DNA of 64,000 bases. It comes from Methanothermobacter tenebrarum (GTDB lineage Archaea; Methanobacteriota; Methanobacteria; Methanobacteriales; DSM-23052). Both the position numbers and the translations under genes were made by a program. The notes beneath the pieces were generated by a model, which was not told the origin of the DNA, made no database searches, and saw only the letters and a list, made by a program, of their open reading frames with translations. Of the stretch, positions 35,095 to 51,353 are shown one piece after another; the first letter of the stretch is position 1; each line of letters begins with the position of its first letter. The stretch spans positions 82,501 to 146,500 of the forward strand of contig NZ_QLOE01000001.1 of assembly GCF_003264935.1 (NCBI RefSeq), read 5' to 3'.

Positions 35095-35127
35095 TAACCT
35101 CAAAGGGTGTAACCTAAAAGGTTACAC
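35095..35127. promoter_or_regulatory. Palindromic operator candidate before hdrCB
   Basis: gtgtaacct (35107-35115) and aggttacac (35119-35127) form a perfect 9-bp inverted repeat with a three-base centre. TAACCT also occurs directly at 35095-35100 and at 35143-35148, the last one running into the TATA box. The layout suggests a transcription factor with repeated half-sites controlling hdrCB, and perhaps the divergent gene at 35039. Seen directly; the regulator is unknown. Confidence 0.6.
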
Positions 35128-35146: not shown

Positions 35147-35156
35147 CTATATATAC
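35147..35156 (+). promoter_or_regulatory. TATA box of the hdrCB operon
   Basis: ctatatatac at 35147-35156 would place the transcription start near 35177 and a leader of about 45 bases before ATG 35224. The third TAACCT half-site overlaps its upstream edge, so binding there could block TBP. Position-based inference. Confidence 0.55.
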
Positions 35157-35223
35157 TGATCACTTCCAGACCCGAAATACGGGAACCAGTGACAACCCCC
35201 CCTAATGGTAGGGCGTGAAAACA

Positions 35224-36060
35224 ATGTCCATACTAGAACGCCTAAAAAGATTATTAATAGGTGAAGAAAAACCCGAAGAAAAAGAAACAGAGAAACCAGC
35301 GAAAGAAGAGGTTAAAGCCAAAGAGGAAAAGGAAACCAAAGAAGAGGTTGCTAAGGAAGAACCAGAAAAACCTGAAGAGGTTAAAGAAGAGGTTGCTAAG
35401 GAAGAACCAGAAAAACCTGAAGAGGTTAAAGAAGAGGAAGTCAGTGAAGAAACCGAGGAAGAGAAAGTTGAAAAAGAAGAAAAACCTGAAAGGAGTGATA
35501 TAATGACTCTGTTAAAAGGAGAAGAAGAACTTATAAGAAGAAGTGATGTAGACATGGAATTCTCCGAAAAAGTTAAAGCAGCTGGCGGAGAAAGCCTTGA
35601 ATACTGCTTCCAATGCGGAACATGCACAGGATCCTGCCCATCAGGTAGGAGAACACCCTACAAAGTACGGCAGATAATCAGAAAAGCAAACATGGGACTG
35701 AAAGACCAGCTCTTATCAGACCCAGCACTATGGATGTGCACAACCTGCTATTCCTGCCAGGAAAGATGCCCAAGGAAAGTCAAAATAGTTGACGTTGTAA
35801 AACTAATAAGAAACGAAGCAGCCAAAGCAGGATACATGTCCCCAGTACACAAGGCCGTCGGCTCATTCGTTATAAAAACAGGCCACGGAGTGCCAATAGA
35901 TGACACCACAAAACAATTAAGGGACGCTGTAGGCTTGGGAGAACTGCCACCAACAACACATTCATTCCCAGAAGCCCTCGAAGAAGTTCAGAAAATCATA
36001 AAAACGACAGGATTCGATTCACTTATAGGATACAATTGGGAAACAGGTGAAATAGAATAA
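35224..36060 (+). CDS. hdrC: Heterodisulfide reductase subunit HdrC with charged N-terminal extension
   Basis: Iron-sulfur subunit of cytoplasmic HdrABC, which reduces CoM-S-S-CoB while passing electrons to ferredoxin by flavin bifurcation. Seen: two 4Fe-4S motifs, [16 protein letters not shown] and [13 protein letters not shown], in the last 185 residues; a [15 protein letters not shown] tail. Before them lie 93 residues almost wholly Lys, Glu and Pro, containing an exact 45-bp tandem repeat (35341-35385 and 35386-35430; unit [15 protein letters not shown]). An internal ATG at 35503 has AGGAGTGAT seven bases before it and would give 185 residues, the length I recall for the Methanothermobacter subunit. 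The outer start (ATG 35224, or GTG 35215) has only GGTAGGGCG. Both forms may be made. Two bases before hdrB. Confidence 0.9.
35341..35430 (+). repeat. Exact 45-bp tandem repeat in the hdrC extension
   Basis: The unit from 35341 to 35385 is repeated base for base at 35386-35430 and is followed by a few more matching bases. Identity at third codon positions points to a recent duplication. It encodes a Lys/Glu/Pro-rich 15-residue unit. Confidence 0.9.
35491..35505 (+). promoter_or_regulatory. Internal ribosome site and start codon inside hdrC
   Basis: aggagtgat (35491-35499) is close to the ideal archaeal site GGAGGTGAT and is correctly spaced before ATG 35503, in frame with hdrC. Translation from here yields the canonical 185-residue protein starting [13 protein letters not shown]. 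Confidence 0.75.
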
Positions 36061-36079
36061 AATGGGGGAGGCTAGAAAG

Positions 36080-36997
36080 ATGGCATTCGCATACTTTTTA
36101 GGTTGCATAATGAACAACAGGTACCCTGGGATAGAAAAAGCAACACGCGTATTATTCGACAAACTAGGAATAGAATTAAAGGACATGGAAGGAGCATCCT
36201 GCTGCCCAGCCCCTGGAGTCTTCGGATCATTCGACAGGACAACATGGGCATCCATCGCAGCAAGGAACATAACAATCGCAGAGGGAATGGACGCAGACCT
36301 CATGACAGAATGTAACGGGTGCTTCGGTTCACTATTTGAGGCGAACCACTTACTCAAAGAAAACGAGGAAATGAGAAACAAGGTCAATGAAGTACTCAAA
36401 GAAGTTGGCAGAGAATACAAGGGAACTGTCAACGTAAGACACTTCGCTGAAGTATTATATAATGACGTTGGACTCGACAAATTATCAGAACTCATCAAAA
36501 AACCTCTTAATTTAAACGTGGCAGTACACTATGGTTGCCACTTCCTAAAACCAAGTGAAGAGATCGGTATTGACAACCCAGAAAATCCAACCATCTTAGA
36601 CGAGCTAGTGGAGGTTACAGGCGCGAAATCAATACCATACAAGGATAAGATGATGTGCTGCGGCGCAGGTGGAGGTGTAAGATCACGAGACCTAGAAGTG
36701 GCATTAGACTTCACAAGAGAAAAGATAATAAACATGCAAGAAGCAGGAGCCGATGTAATAGTTAATGTGTGCCCATTCTGCCACCTACAATTCGACAGGG
36801 GCCAGATAGAGATTAAGGAGAAATTCGGAGAAGAATATAACATGCCAGTACTTCACCTTGCGCAACTGCTAGGACTTGCAATGGATCTTGACATAAGAGA
36901 CATAGTCATAGACGCTCACAACGTTGAAGTGGATCCAGTGATAAGGAAGATAGAGGAATCTTTAGCCGAGAAAGATATCACAATAGGGGGAGAATAG
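36080..36997 (+). CDS. hdrB: Heterodisulfide reductase subunit HdrB
   Basis: Catalytic subunit that cleaves the CoM-S-S-CoB heterodisulfide at two non-cubane 4Fe-4S clusters. Seen: 305 residues beginning [18 protein letters not shown], then two CCG domains: [11 protein letters not shown] near 44 with ECNGCFGS near 82, and HYGCHFLKP near 155 with [13 protein letters not shown] near 198 and [13 protein letters not shown] near 236; these are the cysteine-rich CX31-39CCX35-36CXXC patterns of HdrB. ATG 36080 lies eight bases after GGGGGAGG; the ATG at 36062 is part of that ribosome site region. Follows hdrC in one operon. HdrA is not in the window. Confidence 0.96.
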
Positions 36998-50066: not shown

Positions 50067-50174
50067 AATCAAAAACCTCCAGATATATTAGAGTTTAATT
50101 ACTAGATAGAGTATAAATTTATTATCAAGGATAATTATAGGGTAGAATAAAATGTTATGGGGAGGTTATTCGAA

Positions 50175-51353
50175 TTGATTTATTTCTTAATTACCCTTGG
50201 AGGAATGGGCCTGTTGATTATTGGAGTTTATCTTATGACCTTTGGCTTTGGCATACCTCCTAGTTTTGGTTTGTTCTTTTTGGGATTATGCTTATTCGTC
50301 ACTGGAATGCTTATGATAGTGCTATTCGCAGGGAGCATAGACCTACAATCACTAAAAGTCGAAACAGCCCCAATCCCTAAAAGAAAAACATCCAAAAAGA
50401 CGAAAGCAATTCCAAAGTCCGTGAGGAGGCCTCGAAAGGGCATCATGGAAAAACTAAAAACTGAAATAGAACCCGAAAAAGTGGTTGAAGAACCTCCCAC
50501 CAAACCAAAACTTAAAAAAGTAGAGACCCCCACCCAAGAACTGCCCAAAGAACCAAAAAAAGACAAAACACAAAAAACTGCTAGAAAGCCGCGTCCAAGC
50601 ATGGGAGAAAAGCTAAAAACCGAAAAAGAGAAGGAAACCCCAAGCAAGCCCACTAAAGCACCAACTCCAATCAAACCCATAAAGAAGCCCCAGCCCACAG
50701 AAAAACCGAAAACCGAAATAAAACCAAAAAAGGAGCCATCCAGCGAAAAAACCGATGAAAAACCCCCTAAAAAGCCAAAAGGTAAGGATTCTGATTTTGT
50801 TATAAAACGCCTACAATCCCTTAAAAGAAAGTATGTAGGAGATATTGAGGGCATTGATGAAGTTATAGAAGAGCGTCTAACCCCAATTAAAGGAGTTCTT
50901 GGCAAAATGAGAAGTACCATAATATGGTCATTCGATGCCCTTGACGTCCAAAACACCATGCAGGATATACTAACAGGAGCCAAAGAAAGCATAATCCTAA
51001 TGTACCCTTGGATCCGCAACCTAGACGTCTCAATATTAAAGAAATGTATGGACACAAAAAGCAAACTGATAATCCAAGAGGCCAGCCTAGACGATGAAGC
51101 CTCAGTAGAACTCATAAAACTCCTAATGGACAATAACGTGGATGTGAGGACAATGCCACACGTCCATACCGTCGCAGCTGTCGTAGATGATAAAAAAGGT
51201 CTTATAATCTCCACAGACCCCATATATGACAGCTTTGAAGTGGGTGTAATATACAATGATAAAAGATCAATCAAAGAAATAGAAAAGTTATTCGAAAAGG
51301 CTTGGAGCCTCTCCAAACAAATACCAATAAGGGGGGTAACCAATGAAACTTAG
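50175..51353 (+). CDS. Membrane-anchored protein with Lys/Pro linker and PLD-like C-terminal domain
   Basis: A protein of about 392 residues. Seen: two hydrophobic segments in the first 60 residues ([20 protein letters not shown] and [21 protein letters not shown]), a linker of about 140 residues made mostly of Lys, Pro, Glu and Thr ([18 protein letters not shown] and similar), then a folded domain from about 215: [64 protein letters not shown] and [20 protein letters not shown]. The last domain has the outline of phospholipase D-like or TrmB C-terminal sensor domains but lacks HxKxxxxD, so it is probably non-catalytic. TTG 50175 lies nine bases after GGGGAGG; ATG 50157 contains that site. 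Overlaps the UPF0173 gene by 11 bases. Confidence 0.65.

Follow-up and report, generated by a model that had tools for sequence, protein, structure and literature searches.

Textbooks place HdrABC-Mvh and Frh, enzymes of hydrogenotrophic methanogenesis, in the cytoplasm, and purified Methanothermobacter HdrC runs at ~21 kDa. Solved structures of the soluble HdrABC complex (TIGR03290; PDB 8RVU and 5ODC) and of Frh from Methanobacteriales (PDB 3ZFS and 4OMF) show HdrC and FrhG in their core or short forms only. A longer N terminus of FrhG was dismissed as a misannotation in a cryo-EM paper (PMC3591093). Frh was for a long time believed to be membrane associated and is found in the membrane fraction after ultracentrifugation (PMC3087415); its mass above 900 kDa may be another explanation for this pelleting.

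Two other kinds of described systems are close to what we report here. Archaeal and bacterial SepF proteins (PF04472) carry a 12-residue N-terminal amphipathic helix and a flexible linker ahead of a folded core, and the membrane-binding domain of archaeal SepF binds vesicles with an affinity of 43 uM (M. smithii helix, MGFTDALKRSLGF; PMC8178401). The other kind comprises N-terminal proteoforms from alternative starts, which hdrC resembles in having two in-frame starts with ribosome sites and, apparently, one transcript. The predicted HdrC pair differs from these in being order-wide on a core energy enzyme and in having a parallel on a second one.

We analyzed hdrC of Methanothermobacter tenebrarum within a window of 64,000 nucleotides (the whole stretch of DNA under study). 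In the reading that we favor, with a probability of roughly 0.55, HdrC has two starts, its long form bears a membrane helix on an acidic arm, and this module is shared with FrhG.

Layout of hdrC

The hdrC frame runs on the forward strand from an outer ATG at 35224 to a stop codon at 36058-36060 (35224-36060; 279 codons including the stop). An inner ATG at 35503 separates an in-frame extension of 93 codons from a core of 185 aa (residues 94-278, 35503-36060, same strand). This core scores 242.6 bits against the TIGR03290 equivalog model (cut-off, 160) and so belongs to the HdrC family. It aligns over its full length with the 185-aa HdrC of M. marburgensis (PDB 8RVU), and its 4Fe-4S dicluster domains exceed the Pfam cut-off, with cysteines that are invariant in the alignment, as befits a two-cluster protein. 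In its core, and in having hdrB as the next gene, the locus thus matches that of soluble HdrABC; what sets it apart is the 93-residue helix-plus-acidic-linker, which neither the solved forms nor the sister lineage nor the other methanogens examined have.

Lys, Glu, and Pro account for 68% of the 93 extension residues and for 79% of residues 14 to 90. The extension also contains a 45-bp tandem duplication (35338-35437, forward strand; 2.2 copies, 100% identical by TRF). At an offset of 45, the longest exact match is 55 nt; in 300 codon shuffles, no match at an offset between 9 and 90 exceeded 18 nt. A preliminary description of this stretch had reported the 93-codon extension with both start positions, the exact duplication, and an inner ribosome site and ATG giving 185 residues, all of which are borne out by our analysis, and the length that it gave for the Methanothermobacter subunit agrees with the solved HdrC of M. 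marburgensis. Its statement that the extension consists almost only of Lys, Glu, and Pro fits residues 14 to 90 and fails for residues 1 to 13, which form an amphipathic helix.

hdrB, the next gene of the operon, lies at 36062-36997 on the forward strand according to the list of open reading frames, and its identity as HdrB is taken from sequence and neighborhood. Two ATGs in the hdrB frame are separated by six codons (36062-36080), and the second, at 36080 and preceded by GGGGGAGG, is the likelier start. Elsewhere in the window, a 398-aa protein encoded at 50157-51353 has two hydrophobic stretches followed by a long linker rich in Lys, Pro, and Glu and, after it, a folded domain, and is another membrane-plus-linker design near hdrC.

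A conserved helix and a variable acidic linker

The outer ATG and the codons up to codon 13 (35224-35262, forward strand) encode an amphipathic helix whose hydrophobic moment falls in the top 2.4% of 457 N termini. Across 84 distinct extended homologues, it follows the motif MS-h-h-x-R-L-K-x-h-h-x-G, with M in 84, S in 81, R in 72, L in 81, K in 81, and G in 66 of the 84 sequences, which are related by descent, so that these counts do not represent independent events. Within clades, the pN/pS of the helix codons is 0.10 to 0.57.

Codons 14 to 93 (35263-35502, forward strand) encode an acidic linker that is predicted to be disordered. AlphaFold, run on a 34-sequence alignment, places a helix at residues 3 to 12, gives residues 14 to 87 a pLDDT below 50, and returns a folded core. 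Among the extended homologues, the extension varies from 71 to 202 residues, and the mean net charge is +2 for the helix and -29 for the linker. Indels between close pairs are multiples of three in 145 of 171 cases, and tandem matches of at least 30 nt occur in 9 of 83 extensions. Judging from these comparisons, the linker drifts in sequence, partly through repeat slippage, and keeps its composition. We rejected the idea that the frame is open by chance, as may happen in A-rich DNA, on the grounds of the frame-keeping indels, the conservation of the helix, and the conserved ATG. One reverse frame is also open.

FrhG as a second carrier

In a census of 953 open reading frames, taken from the window and ~53% of a closed genome of a relative (G002), the helix-plus-linker module was found in only two genes, hdrC and frhG, and further carriers are possible elsewhere in G002. 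One additional match, TrpC, is presumably accounted for by the normal first helix of that protein.

The N terminus of FrhG reads MSLIARIKRFLGLEAKPEKEE and, like that of HdrC, combines an amphipathic helix with a linker rich in Lys, Glu, and Pro. The FrhG linker is shorter than that of HdrC, the inner start is a GTG, and the FrhG core is unrelated to HdrC. A helix of this general pattern followed by a variable linker was present in all 30 FrhG sequences recovered from the class, including those of the sister lineage and of Methanosphaera, where the HdrC extension is absent from the former and mostly from the latter; in two Methanosphaera frhG genes, the start would be TTG. The helices themselves vary in sequence (RIK, KIK, KLK, and IRK) and retain their amphipathicity.

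As in hdrC, the inner start of frhG has a strong ribosome site in many species. In Methanothermobacter (our genome included), Methanobacterium-like genera, and several others, the GTG follows GAGGAGGTTGA, which at ~-12 kcal/mol is among the strongest sites in this analysis. The Val at this start is at position 40 by our count and at position 39 in the cryo-EM paper (PMC3591093). Seven other genomes (G016, G019, G132, G005, G068, G040, and G042) have no comparable inner start ahead of the frhG core, and the long FrhG must therefore be made there. This comparison indicates that the FrhG extension is real and that translation probably begins at the inner start, too.

What the helix may bind

HdrC has the features by which SepF-type anchors are known, with an amphipathic helix at the N terminus and a flexible linker behind it. 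This linker exceeds that of SepF in length and acidity, binding of HdrC to lipid is only predicted, and a Pfam scan of HdrC did not find PF04472. The genome has a separate SepF, and HdrC is SepF-like in its working at most and not a SepF. A score that combines hydrophobic moment and charge, reportedly in the form of a published discriminant, gives 0.83 to 1.62 for the HdrC and FrhG helices, compared with 0.80 for M. smithii SepF. By analogy, the membrane may be what the helix binds, a point on which we are less sure than on the existence of the two forms.

The main rival keeps the same two forms and would have the helix dock in a protein groove (e.g., of Mtr, Eha, Mcr, or Fwd, or between Hdr and Frh), with the linker as a leash that raises the local concentration. 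R6, L7, and K8 are nearly invariant in HdrC (72, 81, and 81 of 84), tighter than a purely physicochemical membrane helix needs, and it is for this reason that we keep a protein partner as a serious candidate; the presence of related helices on two enzymes points the same way. However, the helices of FrhG differ in sequence yet stay amphipathic, and archaeal SepF has been shown to use a helix of this type for membrane binding. We therefore regard a protein groove as possible but rather unlikely. Docking to another complex was also raised in the preliminary description, and it stands as this rival; the helix more directly resembles known lipid-binding anchors.

Promoter, leader, and ribosome sites

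We scored ribosome sites by the duplex energy with the 16S tail (anti-SD, AUCACCUCCU). The inner site of hdrC, AGGAGTGAT (35491-35499, forward strand), reaches -9.8 kcal/mol, a strength matched by only 2.3% of the window's 353 internal in-frame ATGs and greater than that of 81% of the gene starts there. Synonymous recoding of the inner site reached it in 3.7% of draws. The outer site, AGGGCGTG (35210-35217, forward strand), at -8.3 kcal/mol outscores 66% of the window's 59 gene starts, and in relatives its position is occupied by AGGTGTG, so the earlier characterization of this site as weak was wrong.

Across the 84 extended homologues, the picture for the inner site is mixed. It is strong in Methanothermobacter and in Methanobacterium-like genera and weak (~-3.3) in many Methanobrevibacter, and a synonymous-codon test of the site gave p < 0.05 in only 19% of the 84, being mildly positive overall. 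hdrC thus has two conserved in-frame starts, each with a ribosome site of its own, as is expected of a gene for dual N-terminal proteoforms, with the inner site weak in the Methanobrevibacter just mentioned.

A TATA-like box, read from the sequence, lies at 35148-35155 on the forward strand, and 83 relatives have a similar box at a median of 75 nt upstream of the outer ATG. We rejected a separate inner promoter, as TATA-like octamers occur in only 3 of the 84 extensions. With such a box ahead of the outer ATG and nearly none in the extensions, a single transcript probably feeds both starts.

Roughly 20 bp upstream of the TATA box is a perfect palindrome, GTGTAACCTAAAAGGTTACAC (35107-35127), and comparison by eye shows a similar sequence in the same place in relatives. 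No second good copy was found in this genome, and a regulon was rejected for that reason. The palindrome is a probable operator for a regulator dedicated to hdrCB or to the divergent gene.

The 5' leader of the outer start (35175-35223, ~50 nt) is conserved in relatives as GGATTTGAGG..CC.ATGATT..CAAGGTGTG. RNAalifold found no consensus pairs in the leader alignment, though by eye a hairpin with compensating changes looked possible. Rfam returned two matches near the hdrC start, both far under the gathering score.

Spread and loss across the Methanobacteriales

Across 151 genomes of the order, intact hdrC genes are nearly all open frames of ~260 to 390 codons, the short frames being confined to Methanosphaera and a few others. 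The extension is present in 84 of 100 distinct hdrC loci, always with an ATG start, and these 84 share one layout of outer ATG, helix motif, variable acidic linker, and inner ATG, the inner Met being invariant in the alignment of extended HdrC. The preliminary description had named an upstream region out of frame in close relatives as an outcome that would tell against it, and the frame is open in all 84 distinct homologues. Its two suggestions of two isoforms and a disordered tether are both favored by this comparison, with dual translation still at the level of an inference. It had missed the conserved helix, the order-wide spread, the independent losses, and the module on FrhG.

In the only genome analyzed from a sister lineage of the same class (G151), hdrC starts at the equivalent of the inner ATG, directly behind the promoter. 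The simplest course suggested by this arrangement is that the extension arose between the promoter and the old start in an ancestor of the Methanobacteriales. It was lost in most Methanosphaera and in two further genomes (G005 and G100), where the inner ATG is the sole start; the Methanosphaera loss is seen in many genomes, and the losses in G005 and G100 each rest on a single draft assembly. One species placed in Methanosphaera (G124) keeps the extension. By eye, G100 appears to retain the leader, a ribosome site that has decayed, and a remnant of the coding sequence, and its outer ATG is destroyed, with CATATCA where relatives have CAATGTCA, so that this genome appears to be a natural knock-out of the outer start. 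Because the inner ATG became the only start wherever the extension was lost, we conclude from these comparisons that the inner start of hdrC is functional.

We also considered that the extension might be tied to CO2 reduction and lost together with it, and rejected this as a simple rule. G124, G137, and G141 have the extension without a MoaA-type match, G137 and G141 also without an FwdB match above the cut-off, and G005 and G100 lack the extension and have MoaA.

These observations bear on a second rival, in which only the long form is translated and proteases cut the linker, in the cell or during purification, to leave the 185-aa core. Long acidic linkers are easily cut, and the weakness of the inner ribosome site in many Methanobrevibacter suits this account. 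It does not accommodate the invariance of the inner Met in extended forms, the strong inner site in several genera, or the use of the same codon as the start where the extension has been lost, and we consider it improbable. The weakest proposal, that translation uses the inner start alone and that the frame ahead of it is an untranslated leader or a misannotation, as was proposed for FrhG, would suit the short forms in solved structures and the three lineages that live without the HdrC extension, but is very unlikely in view of the frame-preserving indels, the conservation of the helix at the amino acid level, the conserved ATG with its own ribosome site, and the frhG genes without any inner start. 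We know of no peptide from the HdrC extension. That both N-terminal forms of HdrC are made is nonetheless well supported by the comparative evidence.

Proposed mechanism and implications

In the two-start reading that we favor, one hdrC mRNA would be translated from two in-frame starts, each served by its own ribosome site. The inner start would give the classical soluble HdrC of 185 aa, and the outer start a long form in which a basic amphipathic helix of 12 residues sits on a long, disordered, and strongly acidic arm. The helix would most likely bind the anionic archaeal membrane from the cytoplasmic side, in the manner of the N-terminal helix of archaeal SepF, and the acidic arm, repelled by that membrane, would keep the complex at a distance. 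HdrABC-Mvh could thereby float near membrane partners such as Mtr or Eha. With the same module on FrhG, this would be a shared way of bringing part of the pools of two soluble electron-transfer enzymes to the membrane; Hdr and Frh translated from the outer starts would be membrane held, and those translated from the inner starts would be free. An effect on electron flow is what we would infer from such an arrangement. Counting against this reading are the several lineages that do without the HdrC extension and the weak inner site of many Methanobrevibacter.

Dual N-terminal forms and amphipathic anchors are both familiar kinds of feature. For their presence on HdrC throughout the order, with a counterpart on FrhG, we found no precedent in the open literature, a scope with most subscription journals outside it. 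Within that scope, no paper joined HdrC and Methanothermobacter with an "N-terminal extension," and none reported ribosome profiling of the organism.

We tentatively extend the proposal to the order, at somewhat less than even odds. The Methanobacteriales would make both HdrABC-Mvh and Frh in membrane-tethered and free versions, with one small subunit of each being translated from two starts, and the ratio of the forms would set the membrane share of the H2 and heterodisulfide pathway beside Mtr and Eha. The tether may have stayed hidden because the purified forms begin at the inner codon and the FrhG extension had been set aside as a misannotation. If the proposal is true, it would help to explain the long-found membrane association of Frh, and complexes purified in their short forms would give an incomplete picture. 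An order-wide tether on both enzymes would reopen the question of whether they work at the membrane, beside the Na+-pumping Mtr and the Eha hydrogenase.
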